Assembly: GCF_029203305.1 (NCBI RefSeq)
Contig: NC_089463.1
Span: 885,001-949,000, forward strand
Source of the DNA: Yamadazyma tenuis
Taxonomy: Eukaryota > Ascomycota > Pichiomycetes > Serinales > Debaryomycetaceae
DNA: 64,000 bases
Direction of reading: 5' to 3'
Position numbers and translations under genes: made by a program. Positions 5,716-58,084 of this stretch are shown here, one piece after another. Under the pieces are notes generated by a model. It did not search any database, was not told the origin of the DNA, and saw nothing but the letters and a program-made list of their open reading frames with translations. Positions within the stretch are counted from its first letter, which is position 1, and each line of letters begins with the position of its first letter.

Positions 5716-6849
5716 ATGTCTAAAGCAGAACTTAGTTTGGAAACCAAAACCATTACCTTATTGCCAGGTGATCATGTGGGGGAAGAGGTTGTTGCTGAAG
5801 CTGTGAAAGTTTTAAAAGCCATCGAGAGATCTACCCCTAAAAATATTCAGTTTAACTTTGAAAAACATTTGATTGGAGGCGCTGCCATTGATGCTACTGG
5901 AGTTCCATTACCTGATGAATCTTTAGAAGCTTCGAAGAGATCAGATGCTGTTTTGTTGGGTGCTGTTGGAGGTCCAAAATGGGGTACTGGGAAAGTGAGA
6001 CCAGAACAAGGTCTTTTAGAGATCAGAAAGGAGTTAAACTTGTATGCTAACTTAAGACCATGTAACTTTGTCTCTGATAAGTTACTCGAGTTGTCACCAT
6101 TGAAAGCTGAAGTGGTTAAAGGAACCAACTTTTGCGTGGTGAGAGAATTGGTGGGTGGTATTTACTTTGGTGAAAGACAGGAACAAGAAGACTCTGCGGA
6201 TGGAACCTCTGCTTGGGACACCGAAAAATACACCGTTGCTGAAGTTACCAGAATCACCAGAATGGCTGCCTTCATGGCATTACAACATAACCCTCCTTTG
6301 CCAATTTGGTCTTTAGATAAAGCCAATGTTTTGGCATCTTCAAGATTATGGAGAAAAACTGTTGACGACGTGATTTCCAAGGAATTTCCTCAACTTACTC
6401 TCCAACATCAGCTTATTGACTCTGCTGCTATGATTTTAGTACAAAGTCCAAAAAAGCTCAATGGTATCATCATTACTTCTAATATGTTTGGTGATATCAT
6501 TAGTGATGAAGCTTCCGTGATTCCAGGGTCTTTAGGTCTTTTACCTTCTGCATCTTTGGCTTCTTTACCAGATACCAACAAGGCTTTCGGATTATATGAA
6601 CCATGTCATGGATCGGCTCCAGATTTGCCAGTTAACAAGGTCAATCCAGTGGCTACCATCTTGTCTGTTGCTATGATGTTGAGATTGTCTTTAGACTGCT
6701 TGGCTGAAGCTGAAGCTTTGGAGACTGCTGTTGGTAACGTAATCGATAGAGGTATTAGAACTGCAGACTTACGTGGACAAAGCACTACTCAGGAAGTTGG
6801 TGATGCCATTGCTGAAGAAGTCGAGAAAATCTTAGGCTCTAGTGCCTAA
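5716..6849 (+). CDS. LEU2: 3-isopropylmalate dehydrogenase
   Basis: Catalyses NAD-dependent oxidation and decarboxylation of 3-isopropylmalate in leucine biosynthesis, in the cytosol. The 377-residue sequence starts with the Rossmann-like [14 protein letters not shown] and contains [13 protein letters not shown], the substrate-binding LRPCNF and [11 protein letters not shown] blocks, and the metal-binding [13 protein letters not shown] segment, followed by the GSAPDLP loop that binds NAD. Length is slightly above the S. cerevisiae enzyme (364). The gene lies downstream of NFS1 and convergent with BUD3 (126 bases between stop codons). A Leu3 site in the promoter supports leucine control. It looks intact. 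Confidence 0.98.
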
Positions 6850-22533: not shown

Positions 22534-22639
22534 CGATCATTGTAAATATAACATTTGTACATAGACTCAGTATAACATTACCTAAATGCGCGTCGAGAAA
22601 AAATTATGTGTTGATTTCTTTAGGATAAGTTCAGAACAG

Positions 22640-23215
22640 ATGGAAAACGTTTTGGATCAAGTTAAAGATACTAAAGTGTATCAGGAGTATCAGAAGTTGG
22701 GTGTGACATATCAGAAGCTCATCGATCAATCCGTTCCCCATAAGTATTACCGGTGGGGTCTTTTTGGTGGTGTTTTGTTTATCTTTATGGTACGTATTCT
22801 AGTGTCTCAAGGATGGTACATCATTTGCTATGCTCTAGGAATCTATCTATTGAATATGTTGTTAGCTTTCTTAACTCCAAAGTTTGATCCTTCATTGGAA
22901 CAAGAAAGAAGAAGCGAATCTATTGAAGAAGGTTTAGGGGAAGATGATGACCCTGCTGAAAACGAAGAAGAATTCAGACCATTTATTAGAAGATTGCCCG
23001 AATTCAAGTTTTGGTACAATTCCACAAGAGCTGTCATACTTGCCTTGATTACTTCTTTCTTTTCCATCTTCGATATTCCCGTGTTTTGGCCTATTTTGTT
23101 GATGTATTTCATTATTTTGTTCACCTTAACTATGAGAAAACAAATCCAACACATGATCAAATATAAGTATTTGCCATTCGACTTTGGTAAGGCCAAATAC
23201 AAGCCAAGAACCTAA
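22640..23215 (+). CDS. RER1: Golgi retrieval receptor Rer1
   Basis: Returns ER membrane proteins with polar residues in their transmembrane segments from the cis-Golgi to the ER in COPI vesicles. The 191-residue protein has four membrane segments in two hairpins and the near-invariant blocks LLAFLTPKFDPSLEQE, FRPFIRRLPEFKFWYNSTRA, FSIFDIPVFWPILLMYFI and MRKQIQHMIKYKYLPFD. An in-frame ATG at 22586 would add 18 residues (MRVEKKLCVDFFRIS...); the ATG at 22640 gives the usual length (S. cerevisiae 188) and is preferred. The ortholog is YCL001W, the first gene on the left arm next to CEN3; here too it lies close to the candidate centromere. Confidence 0.93.
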   Translation: MENVLDQVKDTKVYQEYQKLGVTYQKLIDQSVPHKYYRWGLFGGVLFIFMVRILVSQGWYIICYALGIYLLNMLLAFLTPKFDPSLEQERRSESIEEGLGEDDDPAENEEEFRPFIRRLPEFKFWYNSTRAVILALITSFFSIFDIPVFWPILLMYFIILFTLTMRKQIQHMIKYKYLPFDFGKAKYKPRT

Positions 23216-23532: not shown

Positions 23533-26500
23533 ATGAGCAGAGCAGAGATTGATCTTCAAACTAGTGTCAAGAAAGCATGCAATCAAGAGGAGGTACCTCC
23601 TAAAAGAAAGCATGTTAGAGCTTGTATTGTTTACACATGGGACCATAAGAATTCAAGAGCTTTTTGGCACGCAATCAAGATTCAACCTTTGCAAAGTGAT
23701 AAAGTTCAATTGTTCAAAGCATTGGTGATGATTCATAAGATCTTACAAGAGGGTCACCCTAATTCATTAAAAGATGGATATAGAAATAGAGAGTTCATTA
23801 GCTCCTTGGGTTCAATATTTCCTTCGAGCGAGTCGAGTTACGGGAGACTTATTAATCAATATGTCAAATACATTTTGAAAAAGTTAGATTTCCACAGAAA
23901 CAATCCTAGCTTCAATGGAATGTTTGAATACGAGGAGTATATCTCATTAAGAGCTGTTAATGACCCAAATGAAGGCTATGACTCTATCCTTCAATTAATG
24001 GAATTGCAAGATGCTATTGAGGACTTTCAAAAGCTCATCTTTGCCTCCATTAACCAAACCCCCGATAACTTGTGCAAGGTCAGTGCATTAGTCCCATTGA
24101 TTAGTGAAGCATATGGTATTTACAAATTTTGTACTTCTATGTTGCGAGCAATGTACCAACAATTGGGAGACGACGATGCCTTGCAAGCATTGTTTGAAAA
24201 ATTCGATTCACAACATTTTGTTTTGAGAGACTTTTTCACTGATTGCAACTCAATTAAGTTTTTGACTACTTTAGTCTCCATCCCGAGATTACCGAGCTCT
24301 CCTCCAAGCTTGAAAGTTGGTGACGGTGAAACCAGCATCTTGAGACCCAAATCGAATGGTACCGAAAGTTCTACTCCACAAATTTCGTCTCAACCTACTT
24401 CGACATTTGTTCCTCCTCAAACGCCCCCTGCTTCTGACCTGATCTTTCTCCAACAAACAGGAGTTTTCGACCAGCAGTTAGCTGAACAACAAAGGTACCA
24501 GCAAGAATTAGAAGCTCAGCGTCAACAGCAACTTCAGGATCAATTATCGCAGCAGCAGGCATTTCAGCAACAACAACAAGAACAACATCAAAGGTTCTTA
24601 CAAGAACAACAAATGTTACAGCAGCAACAAACTCAGCAGCAGCAATCACGCGTTACAGAATTGGAGCACGATTTAATCATGTTTAAGAATCAGTATGACA
24701 ATGACCAGCTGTTATTGCAACAGTATGATGCTCGAGTGAAATCTCTCGAGAATGAGTTAGTTCAATTGAATGAAAATGCAACTCAACAAGTTGCATCAAA
24801 AGATGAACAAATCAGAAGTCTTGAGGAACAGATTTCTAACTGGTCAAAGAAGTACGAATCTTTAGCTAAATTGTATTCAAAATTGCGCCAGGAGCATTTG
24901 GATCTATTGTCCAGATTCAAAAAGATCCAGCAGAAAATCAGCAGTGCTCAAGAATCGATCCAAAAGAGAGAAAAATTTGAAAAAGATTTGAAAGCCAAAA
25001 ACCTTGAATTGGCTGATTTAATTCGTGAACGTGATAGAGCAAGGTTAGACCTCGATAGATTAAGAGGATCCAAAGACCAAGAAATTCAGAAACTTCAAGC
25101 TGAATTGAGAGAATTGAATGTGCAAGTCAACGAAAGTGGTAAGTTGCAATCAATGAACTTGTCTACGATTGTGTCGAGTCACCAAAAGGAATTAGAGAGC
25201 CTCAAATCTCAATTGAGGGATAGAGATGCTAAATTAAGCCAATTATCTCCAGAGTCATTGCAGGAAAAGCTCAGAGAAAAAGAAATTGACTTAGAAATCG
25301 CCCAAGAGTCATTGGAAAGTGCTTTGAATGAACTTGCTCTATCAAAAAATGACCAGGAGGATATTGTGAATGCTGAAATTGATCAAATTCTTTTGAAAAA
25401 TATAGAGAAATTTAGGTCTTTGATTGATTTATTTTTGAACAACAGCATTAAAAGAATTCAAACTACTAGGCATGAATTGGATTCATCTGTACAAGCAGGA
25501 AACTTAAATGCATCCCCTGAGTATGTCTTATCTATCATCGAAGCTTGCTCTGACCTTGCCTCTGACTTTGCCAGTGTTGTCAACGGATTCATAGTGGACG
25601 GAAAGAGCTCATACGAAGACGATTCTAGCTATTCTGCTATTATTTTGACAAGTTCAGAGTTGACCACTACTCTCAATGATCTTATGCTTAATATTAAAGG
25701 AGTTTCTAGAACTGTTTCGCAAGAGTCAGAAGGTGAGATTTTGGGATTATTTTCGGATGTGTTAGATGATACTGAAGCTTACTTGCATCATATCACTTCC
25801 AAGGAATTAGAAAAATTCAAGAACGACGATGACCGGATTGATAGGGTCATTGATTCTAATTTGCAACTCCAACATAGTTTGCAAGGACTAATTGCATATG
25901 TGGAAACATTAAGGTCCACAAAGGGAATCAATTTCACCCTGAAAAACTTGGATAAGATGGTTGATGATGAAATGCTTCAAACTGCTAAAACTGTACAGAC
26001 CGCGTCAAAATTTTTGGCTGACCTTATGTCGAATCCAAAAATCAAAAGTGAAAACTTGGAAGTTCATGGTGCCATCTTAAGTGCTGCCCAAGCAGTTATT
26101 GAGGCTGTATCAACACTTATCAAGGCTTCTACAGAGTCTCAAAGAGAAATTGTTAGCAAAGGAAGAGGTTTACAAACGCGTACTGAGTTCTACAAAAAGA
26201 ACAATAGATGGACAGAAGGTTTGATCAGTGCTTCCAAGGCTGTAGCTGGTGCTACAAATATATTGATTCAGACTGCAGATGGTGTTCTTCGTGAAAGCAA
26301 TTCTCACGAACAGTTAATTGTTGCTTCGAACGAAGTTGCAGCTTCTACGGCCCAGTTAGTAGCCGCATCAAGGGTTAAAGCTAATTTCGTGTCTCAAACA
26401 CAGGAAAATTTGGAAACTGCTTCTGTTCTTGTATCTGGTGCATGTAAGTCGTTGGTACATAAAGTTCAGGATTTGATGGAAACAAATGATTTTTATCCAG

Positions 26501-26667
26501 ATGATTTGGATTTGAGCAAGTTAACCCCGTACGAAGGTAAAACTGTTGAAATGGAACAGCAGGTTGAAATATTGAAGCTTGAGAATATGTTAGGTGCTGC
26601 TAGAAAGAGACTAGGAGACATTCGTAAGCATGGTTATAGGGATGATGTTAGCGACGATGAACGCTAA
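23533..26667 (+). CDS. SLA2: Endocytic adaptor Sla2 (End4/HIP1R family)
   Basis: Links clathrin-coated pits and PI(4,5)P2 membranes to actin during endocytosis. The 1044-residue product has four parts. The ANTH domain (residues about 1-270) opens MSRAEIDLQTSVKKAC with KRKHVRACIVYTWDHKNSRA. A proline- and glutamine-rich linker has dense CAG/CAA runs (24470-24650, residues about 313-375). A central coiled coil spans about 380-640. A C-terminal talin-like I/LWEQ actin-binding domain (about 790-1010) has SAAQAVIEAVSTLIKAS, WTEGLISASKAVAGATN and ASNEVAASTAQLVAASRV. Longer starts use TTG only. In many non-Saccharomyces yeasts SLA2 borders the mating-type locus; here the adjacent DNA is the inverted-repeat gene desert and shows no MAT genes. 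Confidence 0.95.
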   Translation: MSRAEIDLQTSVKKACNQEEVPPKRKHVRACIVYTWDHKNSRAFWHAIKIQPLQSDKVQLFKALVMIHKILQEGHPNSLKDGYRNREFISSLGSIFPSSESSYGRLINQYVKYILKKLDFHRNNPSFNGMFEYEEYISLRAVNDPNEGYDSILQLMELQDAIEDFQKLIFASINQTPDNLCKVSALVPLISEAYGIYKFCTSMLRAMYQQLGDDDALQALFEKFDSQHFVLRDFFTDCNSIKFLTTLVSIPRLPSSPPSLKVGDGETSILRPKSNGTESSTPQISSQPTSTFVPPQTPPASDLIFLQQTGVFDQQLAEQQRYQQELEAQRQQQLQDQLSQQQAFQQQQQEQHQRFLQEQQMLQQQQTQQQQSRVTELEHDLIMFKNQYDNDQLLLQQYDARVKSLENELVQLNENATQQVASKDEQIRSLEEQISNWSKKYESLAKLYSKLRQEHLDLLSRFKKIQQKISSAQESIQKREKFEKDLKAKNLELADLIRERDRARLDLDRLRGSKDQEIQKLQAELRELNVQVNESGKLQSMNLSTIVSSHQKELESLKSQLRDRDAKLSQLSPESLQEKLREKEIDLEIAQESLESALNELALSKNDQEDIVNAEIDQILLKNIEKFRSLIDLFLNNSIKRIQTTRHELDSSVQAGNLNASPEYVLSIIEACSDLASDFASVVNGFIVDGKSSYEDDSSYSAIILTSSELTTTLNDLMLNIKGVSRTVSQESEGEILGLFSDVLDDTEAYLHHITSKELEKFKNDDDRIDRVIDSNLQLQHSLQGLIAYVETLRSTKGINFTLKNLDKMVDDEMLQTAKTVQTASKFLADLMSNPKIKSENLEVHGAILSAAQAVIEAVSTLIKASTESQREIVSKGRGLQTRTEFYKKNNRWTEGLISASKAVAGATNILIQTADGVLRESNSHEQLIVASNEVAASTAQLVAASRVKANFVSQTQENLETASVLVSGACKSLVHKVQDLMETNDFYPDDLDLSKLTPYEGKTVEMEQQVEILKLENMLGAARKRLGDIRKHGYRDDVSDDER

Positions 26668-28256
26668 TTGCTTGTTTAGCTCAGTAGATTGAAAAGTTAG
26701 TTGTTTTGTCTTTAAGTTAACCTCTTTGCCTCTAAACTCTAAAATGACTTCCAGCGATTTTGCTATTAAGGGTGTATTCCATGATGGAATAGAACATTGC
26801 TAGTAAAAATTGCATGAGCTTTTCTGAATCATCGGACGGCACTGCTTTTTGATCAAAAATCGGGTTTTGCACGTCGCTTTTATTTATGAAAACTGGACCA
26901 CACTCCTGCAATTTATTATATAGAAATTACGGATACACCTACGAAACCTTTATAATATGTGCATTTGAAATAATATTTCTGGAAAATGTGCTAGTGATTG
27001 AAATAAACAATCATGACTCTTCAAGACACAAGTAAACTCTTGTTTAATCTGGTTGATTTTGTAAAATATGTAAAAATTGCAAATTCAATAGTTCTTTTGT
27101 CTACTTAACTTTCGTTGTTAAGTACTTTTATCCAACATTTTTGAAGTAGTTTTTGTAGTATTTTTAAATCTTGCTTGAGGATTCGATCCCAATCGTGTTG
27201 ATATCTTACAATTATGTATGTAGAGCATCTTACTACAGGCTTCCTCTCTTTGGCCATTGGCATTAAAATTTCATTCACTCGCTAGTTTAGTGTCCAGTCC
27301 AATAAGTAGTATGTCATTTTGGTTGCAAAACATATATATGCTCAAATACACCCCTCCTCTCATGGATGGGTCACGTCCTCCCTTATCTTAGAAGATACCT
27401 TGGCCGTTACTATCATAACTTGCTGAAGTATCGCCACTCATTCTTTCATATGAGCATGGTTTCTCTTGATCTGATGGAGGGTATCATCTGATCTTGCTAA
27501 CCCCATTGCAATATACTCTTCGATATCGGTCGCTGAAGATTGCTACTGACCAGCAGTCCCATTAGTTGCATAATACCGCTATGCGGTTTCATAAGATAGG
27601 TGCGAGAACCTAATGAGCAATGACGAGGAGCCTAATAAAATAGTTGGCGATATTGATATAGCACAAGTGTAGTTAAGTTGCGCACAAGCAGCATGGGGGT
27701 ACTGATATATGAGAATAAAATGATGCAGTCAGCCTGGATGAATTTTTACTAGTAGCAGATACACAAGACAACAGGACCTAATTCCCTAAAACTTACCTTC
27801 GGATAAGATTGTTAGCATATTATGATGCAGTCTTTTTTGGGACCAATGCTACAACTTTATTATCCGAATATTGCATTGTTGGTTTTCAATTAGTATAAAG
27901 ATTACCAAGAATATTCTATTACACCTACAAGATTCTTAGTCATAATATTCGTCGTGTATCTAAAAATGAAGATAATACCCATACATACAGCCTTTTCAGT
28001 AATTTGTGAGGAATCCAAACCCTCGTCACTTTATGAAGCTGAGATATAAACTCCAACTCATACACTTTAAAGACTTAATAAATCATCAATTGTTGGTGTG
28101 ATACCTATTCTCATTTCCATAATGCTGACAATCTTCAAGTTTTAATCAACACCTAACGAAAATTCTATGTAATCAATCTGCCATTATAGTAGAAACTACA
28201 TTAGAAAAGATACACTCCAGAATGACCAGTGATATTCAATACCATAGTAGGTACTT
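26668..28256. other. Left pericentric gene-free DNA
   Basis: About 1.6 kb downstream of SLA2 without an ORF of 60 codons or more on either strand. AT-rich, no RNA gene recognised. It leads directly into the left arm of the large inverted repeat. Confidence 0.7.
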
Positions 28257-29259
28257 TATTATTAACTCAACATGCTACTTAAAAGCAACGCTATGGTCTG
28301 AAAGCATGCTGATGCTGAGCCAAGCGATGAATCAACCTAGTATAACCAACTAGTATAACCATAAGCAGATCCTTCACCTCTTAAGTCTATTAAAAGGTAC
28401 CTTCCCACTAGAAACAATATGATGATCATCGGCATTATAACACTACAGAAAGCTAACTCAAGCTGTACATCAATAAGAACTATCAAATCGAAACACTTCA
28501 GGCAGAACCACTAATGCTCTACAGGGTGATATCCCAAGATTAAAGAGATTCACACATAGAGACCTCCAAAAAGGACTCAAACTTTCTGACCCATACACTA
28601 TAGCTTTCATCAGTTTGCTCAGAGAAAGCTAATGAACATATATGTGTCTAGTAGAGAGTATCAAGTTGAATTGAGAAGAATGCAGTAAAGAAGTCTGAAC
28701 AACATGAACCAAACCTGAGTCTTTCTATGTATGTGGCAGGGTCAATACAGTGTAAAATTATGGCTCCAATAAGCCAAAAAACTGCAGTAAGTTCATGAAT
28801 AAGTACTTCTGAAGCAAAGACCAGTTATGCTAAGCATAGCCAAACTACTATAACGGACACAGTGCTCAGGAATGTGGAAATAGTGAATTAGTTCAGAATT
28901 AGTGCACTGAAACTGCTATGAATCATGAAAACTTACTCTGCTAACACACCAAACAAAATAATCGAAAAGAATACAATACATAATACATATACTTAATGTC
29001 AAATCAAGATGTCATTATTTGAACCTTAGTCCCATCGTCGAACTTTGTTCTAAATCTTATAGATTCACCAACAAGATAATTTGGACTTTGGCTTGTTACG
29101 TGATTCCAGCTTTTTCAATTTCGAAATAGGGAACTAGGACTTTAAAACTGAATCTCACTGAGCACTAAAATCAAAATTATTCATTCCCAGTTTAAATTTT
29201 TGTGAAAGAAAATACCAATTCATGGTCAACACTATTTAAGTAGTGGAGGACTGATATGA
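28257..29259 (+). repeat. Left arm of large inverted repeat (about 1.0 kb)
   Basis: Reverse-complement partner of 30879-31861. Anchors at 28361, 28380, 28501, 28998, 29013 and 29259 all satisfy left + right = 60138, so 28380-29259 (880 bp) aligns without any indel and with very few mismatches (one seen at the inner end, AAG versus GAG). Near the outer end the arms differ: this arm has an extra 34-base segment between two CATGCT copies (about 28277-28310) and two copies of a 13-base unit where the other arm has three. It contains no ORF of 60 codons or more. Confidence 0.95.
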
Positions 29260-30878
29260 CGATGGATGGTGAATGATATCCAGTCAAGCAGTCTTGTTAG
29301 GTACATTACTAACGCACACCTATTAAACATATAGTGTGAAGCGGAATTATTAAAGACTAAATGTGTTAAGTCTAATTCTTACTTTTATTTAAGGTGGTTG
29401 AAATTCCACCCACTATACATGAATCTATACAGTAAAAGGTTTTCATATAAATATCCTATTTGTGTGCGAATGTAAGTAATACTTACGTTTCAAGATATTA
29501 AAATAAAGTGGAATGGTCACTTCAAAATACAAATCTTGATCAGTATCATCAATGAGTTTATCTTTTTATTTATTCAACTTTCTTGAAATCCGTTGAAAGA
29601 ACAAGGTTGCCAAACATAGGATAATATAGTCAAGAGATCTTGTTGATCTAAGACGTTTAGTGAATATTTAGTGAAAAATAAGAAAATTTTTGCAAGGTTG
29701 AAAAGGGAGGCAAAACGAAATAACATGGACAATACCTTTATTAAACAAGCATTCGGTATTACCAATTAAATTAAAAATACAATCCGAATTTATTGGATTC
29801 GAAATGCTAAGCATTTACTGATATTAAAGGCTAGATTGTAGAAAACTAACACACAAAGTCATAACCCATATCTATACGTGTTATATAATTAAATAATTTA
29901 CAAGAGAGCATACATAGGATTTTTAGTATTAAAGAGAATGGATACGGGAAGACATTGCAGAACATTTATTATCTTAAATTGTGCAATTTCAGTTTCAGTT
30001 GAACTATCGCATTCAATGTAATGTACTAGAACTAATGAATATATCAAAGTACTACACACAGAACTAAATAAATGCACGCGTTAATACGAACTACTGATTC
30101 TTAATTATATTATGTATATTTTGAAGAAAGCTCGAAGAATTTAACAGACATATTTTGCTAGATGTATACAAAAATTTTTGTGTGTGATAGTTGCACCTAA
30201 AAATATTGTAGATGAAAGCAGGTTTGAGGTTTTTGCTTTTATTACTTTTGCTTGGCTTTTAAACAATAAGCATTCGATGAATTTTACCATCTGTTTGGAT
30301 GCAATAAGGATTATTCTGGCAACATTCAATTATTCAAGTTTTTCTTGAAAATTATTGAATATTATCCTAGTATTTTTGTTTATTAGAAATGAACTTGATA
30401 GCTGGGCTTGTAACAATATAAGGATCAAAATTTTATTTTTATGTTCCACTAATGATTTCAACAAAATTGAGAATTATCTCTTGATAATAGGATTAGATAT
30501 ATTCGCTAATAGTAAATTTTGGGATTTTTTTGTAAACATATACCTCATAATTTGTGTATTAAACTTTTGTATGTTTTGTCCTCTTTTTGCAAGCAAAAGT
30601 AACCACGAATGCCAATACAAACTGAAAGGTTTTCCAACTATTCTGAATAGATAACCAATAAAAGTATCTTCTTTTAGATGCGGTGACATATAAAGTTTCT
30701 CAAGAAAAAGTGAACATTTTCTTAATGAACTACGTATTAACTAATCGAGACTTCCACACAAATGGAAATCTTTTAAAGCTTAAATAATTAAATACAAAGT
30801 TCTCAAGTTAAGATTCTCAACTATTATCAATTTCTTGAAAAAGAACTAAAACACAATTTTACTCATCAATCACTATTT
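29260..30878. other. Candidate centromere central core (about 1.62 kb)
   Basis: Unique, strongly AT-rich sequence between the two inverted arms, symmetric about position 30069. Only two chance-length ORFs occur in it (63 codons at 29574-29765 minus; 99 codons at 30355-30654 plus, low in complexity and overlapped by a 71-codon antisense ORF). A core of this size flanked by homogenised inverted repeats and free of genes is the arrangement known for CENP-A-bearing cores of Candida tropicalis and Komagataella centromeres. Function is inferred from architecture and synteny and is not demonstrated. Confidence 0.65.
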
Positions 30879-31861
30879 TCATATCAGTCCTCCACTACTC
30901 AAATAGTGTTGACCATGAATTGGTATTTTCTTTCACAAAAATTTAAACTGGGAATGAATAATTTTGATTTTAGTGCTCAGTGAGATTCAGTTTTAAAGTC
31001 CTAGTTCCCTATTTCGAAATTGAAAAAGCTGGAATCACGTAACAAGCCAAAGTCCAAATTATCTTGTTGGTGAATCTATAAGATTTAGAACAAAGTTCGA
31101 CGATGGGACTAAGGTTCAAATAATGACATCTTGATTTGACATTAAGTATATGTATTATGTATTGTATTCTTTTCGATTATTTTGTTTGGTGTGTTAGCAG
31201 AGTAAGTTTTCATGATTCATAGCAGTTTCAGTGCACTAATTCTGAACTAATTCACTATTTCCACATTCCTGAGCACTGTGTCCGTTATAGTAGTTTGGCT
31301 ATGCTTAGCATAACTGGTCTTTGCTTCAGAAGTACTTATTCATGAACTTACTGCAGTTTTTTGGCTTATTGGAGCCATAATTTTACACTGTATTGACCCT
31401 GCCACATACATAGAAAGACTCAGGTTTGGTTCATGTTGTTCAGACTTCTTTACTGCATTCTTCTCAATTCAACTTGATACTCTCTACTAGACACATATAT
31501 GTTCATTAGCTTTCTCTGAGCAAACTGATGAAAGCTATAGTGTATGGGTCAGAAAGTTTGAGTCCTTTTTGGAGGTCTCTATGTGTGAATCTCTTTAATC
31601 TTGGGATATCACCCTGTAGAGCATTAGTGGTTCTGCCTGAAGTGTTTCGATTTGATAGTTCTTATTGATGTACAGCTTGAGTTAGCTTTCTGTAGTGTTA
31701 TAATGCCGATGATCATCATATTGTTTCTAGTGGGAAGGTACCTTTTAATAGACTTAAGAGGTGAAGGATCTGCTTATGGTTATACTAGTTGGTTATACAA
31801 GTTGGTTAAACTAGGTTGATTTATCGCTTGGCTCAGCATCAGCATGCCGAGTTGATAATAT
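30879..31861 (-). repeat. Right arm of large inverted repeat (about 1.0 kb)
   Basis: Inverted copy of 28257-29259. The shared inner boundary is at TCATATCAG (30879), beyond which the two sides lose similarity at once. Towards the outer end (31777-31812) this arm carries three copies of a 13-base unit related to TTGTATAACCAAC, against two in the left arm, and lacks the 34-base insert. Homology fades at about 31861. Confidence 0.95.
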
Positions 31862-33163
31862 ACCTTTTATATCTCTAACAAAGCAGTATATTCAGAATTT
31901 TTTGGTTAGCTCATTTTGATATAAATTTGTTGAACTATCAATATGCGAAAGGTATGACAATTATATTGATTATTAACTTAGGGTAAGAGGGAACTAGAAT
32001 TTTTCTAGTGAAGTTTACTTACTTTCCTACTATACATCGGTACTATTGGGATATAAAAATTATTTATATAGGGCTCATCCACATGGTTTTACTATACTTG
32101 GTGCTATTGATAATGAAGTGAGTTGACAACTAGATGTTACAATTTCTGCAAAGCGGAATGTGATCGTCTTATGAATTTTTGGCTCGCAAAGATGTACTCC
32201 ATGGCCTTTTCTTTTTGAATGAGTCAGAACTTCGGTGGGTGTACGAGTGAAACGAGAAATCTGATATCCAATTATGTCAGTATGCTTGCTGAAATGTGGC
32301 GGTGCGGTTTGCAAGTTGGATTACAGAGAGCACCGAGGATTTGTAACATCGTGGTACGGAGGACTGATATCTTACTCTGGAAATCCAAAGTCCCAACATC
32401 AATTGTCCGGTGCTCTTCTGTGGTTTACCGCGTAAAATTTTAATACTTGCAACGACGTAAATGGATGATATACGAGATAATGTCAGTTTAATGAAGAATT
32501 TAAATCAACTTTAGTCGGGAGATAGATTATATTATATACTAGGCATGATGAATTATTTCTTACCTTGAGTGTTGAAATAGTCACAAAGCACGAATTTTAT
32601 TCTACATAATAACTAGATTAGAACATGAAGCTGCAAAATCTTATTGAGTGTAGTGATCCTAATAGTGAAGAAGGTTCATGAGTATAAAAAAATAGGTCGT
32701 ATGGAGAGGATATAGTAAATGTGTGTAATAGGTATAAGCTTTAGTACAGCAAGTGGGTTTTTATTTAGAAGTATCATTTCCTAATGCTAAACATTTTCAA
32801 ATTTGTTATGAAAGTTGTAAATTTCACAAAGTTTGTAATAATATACTGAGTTGTACAAATACTAGAGGTCACAATTTTTGCCAGACATTTGTTTCGTGAT
32901 GAGGTGCTACACGATTCAGCTGTTATAAGGTAAGCTAAGAACAGAAAGATAGGCAGAAGAATATTTTCTACGGAAGTTAGTTCGAAAGCATTAATGTGAT
33001 GCCACAAATGTAGTATTACTGAGTAGTAATTACTGAGTCGGGTGCAAAATACTGATACAACTTATCCAGGAGAAGACAACTCAATACGAAACTAAAATTT
33101 GTCCAAGTTTTAAGAGTTTACTGATCTTTTCTCTGAGAGCCATATCATTTTGGGGTGAAGACT
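31862..33163. other. Right pericentric gene-free DNA
   Basis: About 1.3 kb with only chance-length ORFs (79 codons at 32075-32314 minus; 74 at 32219-32443 plus; 77 at 32774-33007 minus, all unrecognised). The stretch 32150-32430 is more GC-rich than its surroundings, which may be the decayed remnant of a coding or mobile sequence. Confidence 0.6.
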
Positions 33164-33679
33164 ATGTGCTCATCGTGCATACCAAAAGGGGTGAAAACTT
33201 TTACATCCAAGTTCACTGTACAAGAAAGCTATGACTTGGCAAGTGAACTTCAAGATAACTACAAAGAAATGGAAAATTTTACACTAACATCTACGAAGAG
33301 ATTAGATATTGATTTTAGCGATTTGAAAAACACAATCCCACGAAAAGAAGCGGCTGCAAATACACCACAACAGAAAATTCTTGGGAAGACCGGTGATCCA
33401 AATGACTTCATGGGCTATAATGAAACTTCTAGATTCTACGGGAACTTTTCAAACTCCTTGCTTGCGTGCAAACTTCAATACTCTCAAACAGGTATCGAAA
33501 TTAAAGGCAGTGGAGAACAATCTTTAGATTTTTCACAACTATTTCTGGTTTTTTCCAAGGCACCGGAATATGAAGAAACAAAATACAATTTACCTTCTGG
33601 ACACCAAGAGATGAAACAGGTAGCTTCTTTTGAAGGAGAATTACAAAGGAAATGGCCTTACAAACTGCTTGAAAACTAG
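33164..33679 (+). CDS. Orphan pericentric ORF
   Basis: A 171-residue frame from the ATG at 33164 (open three codons further from a GTG). It opens MCSSCIPKGVKTFTSKF and has no recognised domain; a homeodomain, HMG box and alpha box were looked for and are absent. Its length is greater than expected by chance in this composition, so it may be a fast-evolving gene or the intact part of a decayed one. Several shorter overlapping frames continue downstream to 34245 on both strands, consistent with decay. It lies between the inverted repeat and RRP6. Confidence 0.35.
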   Translation: MCSSCIPKGVKTFTSKFTVQESYDLASELQDNYKEMENFTLTSTKRLDIDFSDLKNTIPRKEAAANTPQQKILGKTGDPNDFMGYNETSRFYGNFSNSLLACKLQYSQTGIEIKGSGEQSLDFSQLFLVFSKAPEYEETKYNLPSGHQEMKQVASFEGELQRKWPYKLLEN

Positions 33680-34475
33680 CCAAAAGTGGAAGTACAATAC
33701 CAGGGGAAATGCTTGGAGGCGAATATATTGGATATTTTTTTTGGAAATTATTATACATACGTTTCTACCTAAAAAGTTGTCTCAAAATTCAGTAACCTCC
33801 GTTACCTCGAGGTCAAAAATATCAAAGCGTTATACATATTCCCAATAATTTTACCTGTGTCAGGAAAAGGCGTCTATGATCTCGGAGAGAATATGAAGTT
33901 TTCAGGAAGACGGCCAGTTATGAGAAGCAGATATATTAGAGGGGATACATTTGCACGAGAGTTCAGCACCAAAGAATTCGCCACTAATTCATACGAAGAC
34001 ACAAGTACTCTTTGCTTTCCATCATTGTTCAGAGTAAGGATGGAACTAGTCCAGAAAATTGCACTAGAGAGGCTTTTTGTCCGTATTACCCTGAGGTGCT
34101 TTTTCAAACTTAAAGAATTCCTCTTATTTGCAGCATATGGCAAATCATCATAGATTTGCTTTAGATGGGCAACAATTTCCAGACTAAAGGGCTTTCGGAG
34201 AATACAAGAAATACAAGTAAGCAACTGACAGAAAATTAAATGCACATATGCGATCAGTAAAGGCAGTAATTTGTCCAGTATGCTGTAAGGTAGTTGAAGT
34301 AGAATAATCGGCAGGTTTCAGAGACAAGTATCCTCTTCTATATTATTTAAGCTATTTTTGATAGTCCCACCGGAAGAGTGAGTTCAGGAAAATTATATTT
34401 AATCAGTCTTAGGTTATTTATTGTCATTATAGAAAAGAACGAGTAGTTCTTTATAAAATTGTTATTAAAGATGGC
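33680..34475. other. Spacer between orphan ORF and RRP6
   Basis: About 800 bases. Open frames of 98 codons (33857-34153 plus) and 123 codons (33874-34245 minus) overlap on opposite strands; neither is recognised and both are within chance expectation. The RRP6 3' end abuts the right side. Confidence 0.5.
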
Positions 34476-36782
34476 TCAGTTTTTGAACGTGGTTGATCGT
34501 CCTCCATGAACACGGTTACCTGATCTAGCACCCCTCGGTCCAACACTTGTCTTTGAGTATGGATCAAATTTTTTCTTTTTGTGCCTGGCATTATCAGATT
34601 TTTTATTTGAATTCATTAGGTTATCCGCTCCTGAATAGTCAAAAACAGGTTCTCCATCATCCGACTGTCTCTTAAATCCTCTGGTTTTGGTTCTCTTAGG
34701 TTTACGGAGAGTTATGATGTCATCTTTATGTTCACCGGCGGATTCATCAACAGATTGTTTGGGAATTTCAACCTCAGGCTGTACTGTTGGGGTTTCAATG
34801 TCAGTCATACTCTGAATCCGGGGTTCAAGTATTTTAGGCTTCTTAAAATCATAAATCTTTCTAAACTCTTCATTTTTTGCTGAAACTCTCTTCACAGCCT
34901 CATCCATAGTAATACTTACCAAGCCATTTGAAAACTTTACACTAAGAATGTGTTCCTGAACTTCATTGAATAATTTAGATGACTTCTTCAATGTACCATT
35001 TTTAGATGGTGGGACTAAAAGTTGATTATTTTCGTTCCAGATATTGTCGAATATTTCGTTCTGCAACTTTATGGAATCCGGGGTAGTCTTGTTAATTTGA
35101 TTATCGCTTGGATATTTTGTAGTGGAGGTATGAGGTTTCATTGCTTCCAGCAATTCCCAATCACTGTTTTCTAGGCGATCCAATATATTGTTTATCAAAA
35201 AAGCCAATTCATCGGCATTCTTCCTGATAAAATCAGTAATAAAGGTCGGAATTGACAAGATTTTTTTGGGATCAACTGGTCTAGACAATGTTGCCAACAA
35301 AGCCAAAGCTTGGTTTGACATAATATACCTTACAGACTCATCAAATTGCCTAGCCAAGTTATCTCTCCAGTTGTATAAAACCTCTACAACTGGTTTGATA
35401 TGATATGGAATATTGTACTGGACAACAATTGGTAGAAAAGGCTCAAGGGGGTTAGAAGACATAACAGGGCAAGTCACCAAACTGGTCCCCTTCAAGGGCC
35501 TAAACTTGGTGTACTCAAATCTTCTTTTAGCTACTAGACGTGAATCATGTAACACACTTTGCATCTTCCCATTACCTTGGTCTATAAGTTTATTCTTCAA
35601 GTGATCGAAAATATTTAACAAGAAATGGGTATCAGACCTTGCGTATGCCAACATTGATGTAGATAATGGCCTTATTCTCCAATCTGCTAATTGGTATTTC
35701 TTTGAAGTTTTGAATTTGGCAAATGTCTCTAACAAATATGCCAACGAAAACTTTGGAAAACCCAATTTCTTGGATGCATGGTAAGTATCAAACAAGGAAA
35801 CAATATAAAGGCCCAAATCTCTTTGGAGCCAAATGATATCCATGAAGGCACCATGAAAAACCTTCACAATCTGGGGATTAGTAAAAACAACATTAAGCTT
35901 TTGCAAATCATCTCTTAAGGCTAGAGTATCAATTATCCAATCCTTTTTTCTAGTGGAAATCTGCATAAGGCACACCAAACCATAATATGTTCTATAGTCA
36001 TGATGTTCAAGGTCCACGGCTATTTCTGACAGATTGCTTAATTCGTTCACCAATTCGTCAATTTGTTCAGGTTGATCTATCCATATAGCATTGGTAGATT
36101 CCCAGGGATTTGAAGGAATTGGGTCACATTTAGATATAATAGAATTCCGGTATGGTTGATTATCAATTTCATATTCGTAAGGATGAGGGTAAAATGGAGG
36201 ATCCACAATATCGGACCCATCTGAATTTTCTGGTTGAACAAGTTTGACTGACTCTTCGAAGGGAATCAATGCGTTTGGCTTTGAGGTAAGCTTAGGCTTA
36301 AATGGATTCAATTCACTATTATCAACGGGTATCAGGAACTCTAACTGTGGTTTTTCCATCTTTTTTCCAATAACCTTACTTTCATCCTTGATCACATTGT
36401 TTGACTCCTCTAAATAAGTAAAAGTTTTGGAATTATCAATACTTCCTTTATTTTCTATCTCGTCAAACAAAACATCAGCTCTCTCAAACAATATGTCTAA
36501 AGTATTTGTTATCACTTTCCAGTTTGAGCCCTCTAACTCTGTATCATTCTTGATGTCTAGCTCAGAAGAATCCGGCTCACTTTTTGGAATGATTCTTTCG
36601 ATTAATTCGTTCGATATATGTGCAAACTTTGAAGACACCTCTCGAGACCTGGTGGCGAGGTTCGAGTCCAAAGTTTTATGGAAACCGATATCATTTGCCC
36701 TCAAAGCACCCGCAGTTCTTATATTCTGCACCACACTAGGAATGATATCCTCATGTAGCAATTCAAGCACTGGCTTTGTCAT
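34476..36782 (-). CDS. RRP6: Nuclear exosome 3'-5' exoribonuclease Rrp6
   Basis: Distributive hydrolytic exonuclease of the nuclear exosome, acting in rRNA, snoRNA and snRNA trimming and nuclear RNA surveillance. The 768-residue protein has an N-terminal PMC2NT region (about 1-110, the Rrp47-binding part) and a DEDD-Y exonuclease domain: D257 and E259 in AVDLEHHDYRTYYG, FHGAFMDIIWLQRDLG, and YARSDTHFLL carrying the catalytic Tyr and Asp. An HRDC domain (about 460-540, WRDNLARQFDESVRYIMSNQ) and a basic C-terminal tail follow. It is divergent from REI1 with 109 bases between starts and a PAC box in the gap. In S. cerevisiae RRP6 is YOR001W, immediately right of CEN15; here it is the first firm gene right of the candidate centromere. 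AIR1/2, its TRAMP partner, is also in this window. Confidence 0.96.
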   Translation of the reverse strand: MTKPVLELLHEDIIPSVVQNIRTAGALRANDIGFHKTLDSNLATRSREVSSKFAHISNELIERIIPKSEPDSSELDIKNDTELEGSNWKVITNTLDILFERADVLFDEIENKGSIDNSKTFTYLEESNNVIKDESKVIGKKMEKPQLEFLIPVDNSELNPFKPKLTSKPNALIPFEESVKLVQPENSDGSDIVDPPFYPHPYEYEIDNQPYRNSIISKCDPIPSNPWESTNAIWIDQPEQIDELVNELSNLSEIAVDLEHHDYRTYYGLVCLMQISTRKKDWIIDTLALRDDLQKLNVVFTNPQIVKVFHGAFMDIIWLQRDLGLYIVSLFDTYHASKKLGFPKFSLAYLLETFAKFKTSKKYQLADWRIRPLSTSMLAYARSDTHFLLNIFDHLKNKLIDQGNGKMQSVLHDSRLVAKRRFEYTKFRPLKGTSLVTCPVMSSNPLEPFLPIVVQYNIPYHIKPVVEVLYNWRDNLARQFDESVRYIMSNQALALLATLSRPVDPKKILSIPTFITDFIRKNADELAFLINNILDRLENSDWELLEAMKPHTSTTKYPSDNQINKTTPDSIKLQNEIFDNIWNENNQLLVPPSKNGTLKKSSKLFNEVQEHILSVKFSNGLVSITMDEAVKRVSAKNEEFRKIYDFKKPKILEPRIQSMTDIETPTVQPEVEIPKQSVDESAGEHKDDIITLRKPKRTKTRGFKRQSDDGEPVFDYSGADNLMNSNKKSDNARHKKKKFDPYSKTSVGPRGARSGNRVHGGRSTTFKN

Positions 36783-36846
36783 AGTTAACTGGAGCTGGTC
36801 TGGAGTTGATTTTTTTTGTTACAAAGACAGTGCGAACAAAAGTCAT

Positions 36847-36866
36847 CTCATCGCATCCTGAAAATT
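36847..36866. promoter_or_regulatory. PAC box and RRPE-like motif in RRP6-REI1 bidirectional promoter
   Basis: CTCATCGC (PAC) at 36847-36854 with TGAAAATTAT (RRPE-like) a few bases on. These sites lie in the 109-base gap between two divergent ribosome-biogenesis genes, so one element pair probably serves both. Confidence 0.6.
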
Positions 36867-57133: not shown

Positions 57134-58084
57134 ATGGAGACCACTACAAATACTCGACCACCAACTCCAAAGCAGGGGTTTGCCGACCAAATTCAGTCCC
57201 TTTCATTTGACCAGGTAAATGACAATGCAGATGAACTTATAGAGCTCCGTGGAAGTGGAAGATATTTTGGAGTTGTCGATCCTCAAACTGGCAAAACCAT
57301 CAACAATAAGCAGTCTCTAGGACCTATTTGTGCGAACTGCCACAAGCGAGGCCACATTCGGGCTAAGTGCAAAACAGTTGTGTGTCACAAGTGCGGTGTC
57401 GTCGGCGATCATTATGAAACCCAGTGCCCTAGCACAATGATATGTGCTCGATGTGGCCTTCGTGGTCATAAAGCCATCGATTGTTCTAACAAAGCCAGAA
57501 AGAAACAGTATTGCAGGACGTGTGATTTGTTCAATCACGATGACGACAACTGTCCCAATATCTGGAGACTGTATCTTTTGAATAAGCAGCCTCAACAGCA
57601 TTCACTCAAGGATGTCCAGCTTCCGGTGATATATTGTTACAACTGCGGCGATAGCACCCATTTTGGAGATGAATGTAAAGAGGCACGTACCTCCCGCGTG
57701 CCCAACTTATCAGGAAGTGCGTTCTCTGGTTCTAATCTCCCACAACAACTAAGAAAGACATACTTTGATCGTCTCTTTGATACTAAACTTCCCCAGAGAC
57801 CCCAAGTCCGCAGACCAGATAATGGCTACAAGAATTCCAATAATAGAGCCCAATTTAAGCCCTATAACAACAACCCTATTGTCAGCAATAACTCCTACAA
57901 CTTAAATCCAAAGAGAAGGTTCGATAATGGACCCCAGGATAATCGTAATGGGGGCCCCATCCGTAACCAAGCCCGCAGAGGAGGAGCTGGTGGCAGGAGT
58001 GGTGGCAACGACCCAAGTCGCCCGGCCCCCACAAGAAGTGGGTTCATCGACCGTAAGAAGTCTGGATTCAACAACTTCTACTAA
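57134..58084 (+). CDS. AIR2: TRAMP zinc-knuckle protein Air1/Air2
   Basis: RNA-binding subunit of the TRAMP poly(A) polymerase complex (Trf4/5-Air-Mtr4) that marks nuclear RNAs for the exosome. The 316-residue product has five CCHC zinc knuckles: residues 66-79, 84-98, 104-117, 127-140 and 168-181, with the IWRLYLL segment between knuckles four and five that contacts Trf4 in known structures. The C-terminal third is Asn/Gly/Arg-rich with RGG-like repeats. Only one paralog is expected outside the whole-genome-duplication lineage, so AIR1 versus AIR2 is a naming choice. RRP6, the exonuclease it feeds, is in the same window but not adjacent. Confidence 0.88.
   Translation: METTTNTRPPTPKQGFADQIQSLSFDQVNDNADELIELRGSGRYFGVVDPQTGKTINNKQSLGPICANCHKRGHIRAKCKTVVCHKCGVVGDHYETQCPSTMICARCGLRGHKAIDCSNKARKKQYCRTCDLFNHDDDNCPNIWRLYLLNKQPQQHSLKDVQLPVIYCYNCGDSTHFGDECKEARTSRVPNLSGSAFSGSNLPQQLRKTYFDRLFDTKLPQRPQVRRPDNGYKNSNNRAQFKPYNNNPIVSNNSYNLNPKRRFDNGPQDNRNGGPIRNQARRGGAGGRSGGNDPSRPAPTRSGFIDRKKSGFNNFY

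Follow-up and report, generated by a model that had tools for sequence, protein, structure and literature searches.

A single-locus inverted repeat as a putative chromosome-specific regional centromere of Yamadazyma tenuis

Inverted-repeat centromeres of yeasts

The centromeres of Komagataella phaffii consist of one short core between inverted arms, and both the repeat and the core are specific for each chromosome (PMC6053246; PMC7263194). Here we describe an inverted-repeat locus of similar layout in Yamadazyma tenuis ATCC 10573, found in a stretch of 64,000 bp (the window; contig C3:885001-949000 of assembly GCA_029203305.1). This C3 locus is very probably the centromere of its chromosome, a putative regional centromere of the chromosome-specific inverted-repeat type. 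The K. phaffii arms measure ~2 kb and its core ~1 kb, compared to ~0.96 kb and 1.6 kb for the C3 locus. Furthermore, K. phaffii belongs to a different yeast order and its Cse4 has been mapped (PMC6053246; PMC7263194).

Described cases in the CUG-Ser1 clade, in the papers cited, are the Candida tropicalis group, the Candida parapsilosis group and Candida albicans. C. parapsilosis shares with the C3 locus its clade, gene-free regions of 5.8-7.1 kb, a unique core and repeats from 443 bp in length. Its arms are 85-96.7% alike and common to chromosomes, while those of the C3 locus are 99.8% identical and present at a single locus (PMC7263194). The homogenised inverted repeat (HIR) centromeres of C. 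tropicalis, C. sojae and C. viswanathii, also CUG-Ser1 yeasts, likewise have a core in inverted arms, the C. sojae core being ~2 kb. However, HIR repeats are common to chromosomes and the C. sojae arms are 3-12 kb long, unlike the one locus with arms below 1 kb in Y. tenuis (PMC7292649). CEN4, CEN5 and CENR of C. albicans, a member of the same clade, resemble the C3 locus in having repeats that are not homogenised between chromosomes (PMC7292649). The remaining C. albicans centromeres have few inverted repeats (PMC7263194).

In Barnettozyma, inverted repeats of 0.5-4.3 kb are 99-100% identical and RER1 is located near CEN4, both as at the C3 locus, and in B. californica the repeats of different centromeres are dissimilar, comparable to the single-copy arms of the C3 locus. 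Different from the C3 locus are its membership of the Phaffomycetales, the mapping of its centromeres by Hi-C, and the occurrence of an inverted repeat at only 3-5 of the 7 centromeres per species; Barnettozyma genomes thus mix inverted-repeat and other centromeres (PMC12711049). The original prediction compared the locus with centromeres of C. tropicalis, C. albicans CEN5 and Komagataella. The closest resemblance is to K. phaffii and B. californica, with their chromosome-specific repeats, rather than to C. tropicalis with its repeats common to chromosomes, as the arms, core and gap of Y. tenuis matched the C3 locus only in the genome search.

It has been proposed that inverted-repeat centromeres are ancestral for the CUG-Ser1 clade and for the Pichiaceae (PMC7263194). 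Yamadazyma is placed in the Debaryomycetaceae (PMC10281105), and the namesake of that family, Debaryomyces hansenii, has Ty5-like retroelements at its centromeres (PMC7263194). A chromosome-specific inverted-repeat centromere in Y. tenuis, if real, would support the ancestral inverted-repeat idea. A literature search on Yamadazyma and Candida tenuis centromeres yielded no earlier report of a Y. tenuis centromere, and none is described in the excerpts of PMC6692504, PMC5499181, PMC7263194 and PMC2924309.

Anatomy of the C3 locus

The candidate regional centromere named in the original prediction is supported most strongly by the flanking genes, and further by the anatomy of the locus, the gene desert, the AT-rich core, the single copy and the lack of features of mobile elements. 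Two properties of inverted-repeat regional centromeres, near-identical long inverted arms around a core and a large intergenic region free of genes, were both found. The parts of the locus are the following (positions in the window; ORF, open reading frame; GC, guanine plus cytosine).

26668..33163 (C3:911668-918163), no strand: ORF-free intergenic region, candidate centromere region, without an ORF of at least 100 aa
28304..29259, plus strand: left arm of the inverted repeat, from the gapped alignment with the reverse complement of the right arm
29260..30878, no strand: unique AT-rich core (mid region), presumed Cse4 platform, 28.3% GC, matching only itself in the genome
30879..31847, minus strand: right arm of the inverted repeat, from the gapped alignment with the left arm

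Gapped alignment of the two arms showed 954 of 956 aligned bases to be identical (99.8%), with 2 mismatches and one 13-nt insertion or deletion. The repeat search returned an ungapped extension of 923 nt at 100% complementarity (28337-29259 / 30879-31801) and, in addition, an outer inverted pair of 58 nt (95%). The longest exact run between the arms is 898 nt (28340-29237 / 30901-31798) with a coordinate sum of 60138, which confirms the perfect inverted register with this sum reported earlier. The repeat is therefore real, but the ends first assigned to it, 28257 and 31861, overshoot the measured limits by 47 and 14 bases. Apart from pieces of the C3 repeat itself, exact inverted pairs spaced up to 20 kb apart did not exceed 17 nt in a sample of 174 kb, composed of the window and 110 kb of chromosome interior (C4 and C6). 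This excludes a chance origin of the repeat.

The core of 1,619 bp contains the 1.5-kb segment with the lowest GC in the whole window and lacks an ATG ORF above 71 aa, in agreement with the earlier description of a unique AT-rich core of ~1.6 kb without a credible gene. Around it, the ORF-free gap (cut-off 100 aa) spans 6,496 bp and is the sole gap above 2 kb in the 174 kb sampled. The next-largest gap is 1,787 bp, and no other exceeds 1.5 kb. The gene-poor stretch of ~6.5 kb amid dense genes noticed before is thereby corroborated.

Flanking genes and possible conservation of the site

The location of the C3 locus is the best new evidence for its reading as a centromere. Genes, including those compared with Saccharomyces cerevisiae, were named by family, not by trees. 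The genes on which the comparison depends are listed first.

5716..6849, plus strand: LEU2-type 3-isopropylmalate dehydrogenase (TIGR00169 leuB, 493 bits, above cut-off)
22586..23215, plus strand: RER1 homologue (Rer1 Pfam family, E 3.7e-77)
23533..26667, plus strand: SLA2 homologue with ANTH and I/LWEQ domains, bordering the gap on its left (top PDB match Sla2)
33164..33679, plus strand: orphan ORF of 171 aa, on the right side of the gap (one database match, the same ORF with CTG as serine)
34476..36782, minus strand: RRP6 homologue, next on the right after the orphan ORF (a record from Y. tenuis ATCC 10573 matches at 96%)

The left neighbours of the gap are bL27m, RER1 and SLA2, and 21,455 bp separate the end of LEU2 from the left arm. 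Nine of the 16 left-flank ORFs belong to the families DCC1, NFS1, LEU2, BUD3, DUF2015, GBP2/HRB1, SGF29, PGS1-type (a name based on phospholipase-D domains together with a family match below threshold) and RER1. We take the S. cerevisiae members of these nine families to be located on chromosome III, in the part of its left arm that runs from LEU2 to CEN3. The S. cerevisiae counterparts of two further left-flank proteins, an L30/L7e-type protein and bL27m, are presumably found near CEN14. According to a table in PMC3141009, CEN3 and CEN14 of S. cerevisiae both derive from ancestral CEN1. Hi-C analysis of three outgroup Phaffomycetales placed CEN1 between RER1 and SSL1 (PMC12711049). A protein search with RER1 itself gave no name telling a position among the best 120 of 4,341 matches.

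To the right, the gap is followed by the orphan ORF, RRP6, a C2H2 zinc-finger protein and a glycosylphosphatidylinositol (GPI) ethanolamine-phosphate transferase; the zinc-finger protein is presumably of the REI1 type. A search of 5.8 billion proteins with the orphan ORF returned a sole match, the identical ORF decoded with CTG as serine. For RRP6, among the best 120 of 3,372 matches, the closest was a Y. tenuis record. Within this set, homologues carry the record names YOR001W (S. cerevisiae) and FACL001C (Eremothecium), while names from other species hold no information on centromere position. We assume that the number 001 in the naming of these two yeasts denotes the first gene beside a centromere, which would make both genes centromere-adjacent. 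The two names fit the descent of S. cerevisiae CEN15 and Ashbya gossypii CEN3 from ancestral CEN6, from which CEN13 also derives (PMC3141009). Kluyveromyces lactis is marked X at the ancestral CEN6 site, which we read as the absence of a centromere (PMC3141009). Synteny with mapped centromeres of other yeasts is thus seen in RER1, in the RRP6 record names and in the left-flank families.

We lean, by a narrow margin, towards a site whose role as a centromere dates back to the ancestor shared by the Serinales (CUG-Ser1) and the Saccharomycetales, with the ancestral CEN6 arm (S. cerevisiae CEN15, RRP6) joined on the opposite side by an exchange between centromeres. If true, point and inverted-repeat centromeres would be structures replacing one another at one conserved place, the neighbourhood from LEU2 to CEN3. 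Conservation of centromere sites across three related orders and ~208 million years, with changing structure, has been reported (PMC12711049), and the C3 locus suggests that this rule extends to the Serinales.

Both flanks of Barnettozyma CEN4 have taken part in exchanges, with CEN1 (RER1) on one side and with CEN6 on the opposite side (PMC12711049). The C3 locus of Y. tenuis likewise joins a CEN1-type side (RER1) and a CEN6-type side (RRP6), by convergence or as an old arrangement.

Proposed function and base composition

Judging from K. phaffii and C. parapsilosis (PMC7263194), Cse4 (CENP-A) nucleosomes would occupy the core of the putative centromere and thin out into the arms. The arms may pair as a hairpin or cruciform, helping to seed or confine Cse4, and would be kept identical through mutual gene conversion. 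Their 99.8% identity suggests such conversion. The earlier label 'homogenised' is apt for the two arms, but not across chromosomes, as no copy was found on any other. Initiation of replication nearby may assist, a step proposed because the intergenic G-C skew, negative on the left of the region, is positive on its right.

With arms and core left out, this intergenic skew amounts to -0.060 for the left flank vs +0.074 for the right flank (P 0.0054 by permutation), and the cumulative minimum coincides with the left edge of the inverted repeat. Fourfold sites show the same direction, but here gene strand dominates, and the G-C skew signal at the C3 locus is soft. C. albicans centromeres show the same direction of G-C skew together with an opposite A-T skew (PMC2924309). 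The GC content is 38.1% in the window vs 43% genome-wide, and genes farther from the core tend to have higher GC at third codon positions (GC3; Spearman 0.44, P 0.018).

Several observations count against a centromere at this position. Similar GC contents were found at C4:585-655 kb (38.8%) and C6:410-440 kb (37.9%), and the GC3 of window genes does not differ significantly from that of genes sampled elsewhere (P 0.20). The GC trough, with two interior stretches equally low and this GC3 result, was therefore dropped as centromere evidence; neither GC content nor GC3 is diagnostic here. The likelihood-best skew boundary lies at ~14-15 kb (P 0.03), away from the inverted repeat, and the A-T skew of the flanks, at -0.041 in the left one and -0.010 in the right one, does not show the opposite pattern. 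On the left flank, 5 of the 16 ORFs do not fit, namely a mitochondrial carrier, an OLA1-type GTPase, SLA2 and two ORFs without a Pfam family. On the right flank, we take only RRP6 and PET127 (2 of 17 ORFs) to have S. cerevisiae counterparts near a centromere, CEN15. No second inverted repeat was present in the sequence scanned, 110 kb of interior from C4 and C6 plus 52.5 kb close to where the 7 nuclear contigs start, and the neighbourhoods of SSL1 and MRP17 are without a large inverted repeat or a gap above 1.5 kb.

Alternative explanations

Centromere function may have left the repeat. In that case the C3 locus would be an ancestral centromere site from which Cse4 has since moved, within tens of kb, to a featureless place, and the inverted repeat would be a recent relic. 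C. parapsilosis 90-137 provides a precedent, with two loci that have intact inverted repeats and new centromeres less than 30 kb from the old ones (PMC7263194). However, the 64-kb window holds no other gap above 2 kb, and the arms must have been maintained recently, as they are still 99.8% identical. We consider such a move improbable. Taken alone, the near-identity of the arms could mean youth. As a sufficient account this is improbable, given the coincidence of the repeat with the only large gene desert in the 174 kb sampled, with the AT-richest part of the window and with centromere-neighbour genes on both sides.

It is much less probable still that the repeat is the relic of a mobile element, either an element with terminal inverted repeats (TIR) or an inverted pair of long terminal repeats (LTR). 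Element debris would be unsurprising at a centromere, since Ty5-like clusters mark the centromeres of Scheffersomyces stipitis, D. hansenii and others (PMC7263194; PMC12711049). The whole genome (10,858,197 bases in 8 contigs, 7 nuclear and one mitochondrial) was searched by similarity, a method that scores just its top candidates and passes over words that are simple or very common. The left arm matched the left and right arms alone, the core matched only itself at E up to 10, and the complete gap (26668-34470 with its right neighbour region) matched itself and the arms, without dispersed copies. Further copies of the repeat, several of which per chromosome would point to a mobile element according to the original prediction, were not found in this search; arms, core and gap matched the C3 locus only. 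A target-site duplication of 3-9 bp was absent at the outer ends of the repeat, and the longest ATG ORF lying wholly in one arm is 46 aa. The window contains 33 ORFs of at least 120 aa (16 in the left flank, 17 in the right flank), 32 of which were scanned against Pfam; the other, 36493-36861, overlaps RRP6. No transposon or retroelement enzyme family was detected in these 32, so that features of a Ty5/LTR-cluster centromere, retroelement enzymes among the scanned ORFs or dispersed copies of the gap, were not seen. A zinc-knuckle match just under the cut-off was obtained for 57134-58084, 25 kb from the repeat, an ORF which we take to encode an AIR1/2-type protein. The single-locus arms and core, the lack of a target-site duplication and the lack of a transposon enzyme family in the scanned ORFs make a mobile element unlikely.

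An invertible (flip/flop) mating-type (MAT) switch was rejected as having next to no probability: SLA2 often adjoins MAT (PMC6053246) and inverted repeats flank the MAT genes of flip/flop yeasts (PMC6692504), but there are no MAT genes in or beside the repeat, the core lacks an ATG ORF above 71 aa, and the sole MATalpha1 match is on C6:426 kb, among homologues of OBP, PIK1 and PAP1.

Other chromosomes, candidate kinetochore genes and minor features

Histones, SSL1, MRP17, URM1, APS kinase and trehalase served as landmark genes in seeking the other six centromeres. The regions C4:585-655, C6:410-440 and C6:97-107 kb lacked exact inverted pairs longer than 17 nt as well as gaps exceeding 1.5 kb. 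SSL1 and MRP17 adjoin mapped centromeres in Phaffomycetales, MRP17 at CEN2 (PMC12711049). As their neighbourhoods in Y. tenuis show neither a large inverted repeat nor a gap over 1.5 kb, not every such centromere site has been kept. At C6:97-107 kb, MRP17 is located beside a homologue of APS kinase (MET14-type) without a gene desert; this is perhaps a lost or moved centromere site.

A candidate Cse4 gene of 158 aa was found at C5:67 kb. Its best PDB match is Schizosaccharomyces pombe Cnp1 (149.6 bits), followed by histone H3 chains at 142.6 bits, a small margin. Three weak NDC10_II matches (28.6-36.4 bits; family cut-off 26.3) were obtained in two ORFs of 657 and 987 aa, at C1:383582-384466 and C5:529171-529485. 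Ndc10 is a subunit of CBF3, which, to our knowledge, is not expected in a yeast such as Y. tenuis. A point centromere of the S. cerevisiae type, with centromere DNA elements (CDE) I-II-III, was rejected, as both strands of 26668-33163 gave 0 CDEI, 0 CDEIII-core and 0 composite matches. A composite match required a CDEIII no more than about 200 bp after CDEI.

One further feature is located within the gene desert, 0.4 kb to the right of the right arm.

32223..32243, plus strand: single interstitial telomere-repeat unit, exact match to 21 of 24 nt (0 of 100 shuffles)

The 24-nt telomere unit is identical to that printed for Y. tenuis ATCC 10573 in PMC10281105. The interstitial copy may represent a Rap1-type site or the scar of a repair event.

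Membership of the CUG-Ser1 clade is supported by the anticodon arm of tRNA-Ser(CAG), by MATalpha1 among OBP, PIK1 and PAP1, and by the 171-aa ORF with CTG as serine. Y. tenuis is a yeast from bark beetle. The match to the anticodon arm was exact; with up to 3 mismatches allowed, the reversed control pattern likewise had one match. The mating-type locus at C6:410-440 kb harbours OBP, PIK1, MATalpha1 and PAP1, SLA2 being found instead beside the putative C3 centromere. The order OBP-PIK1-MATalpha1-PAP1 is presumably the Candida arrangement.

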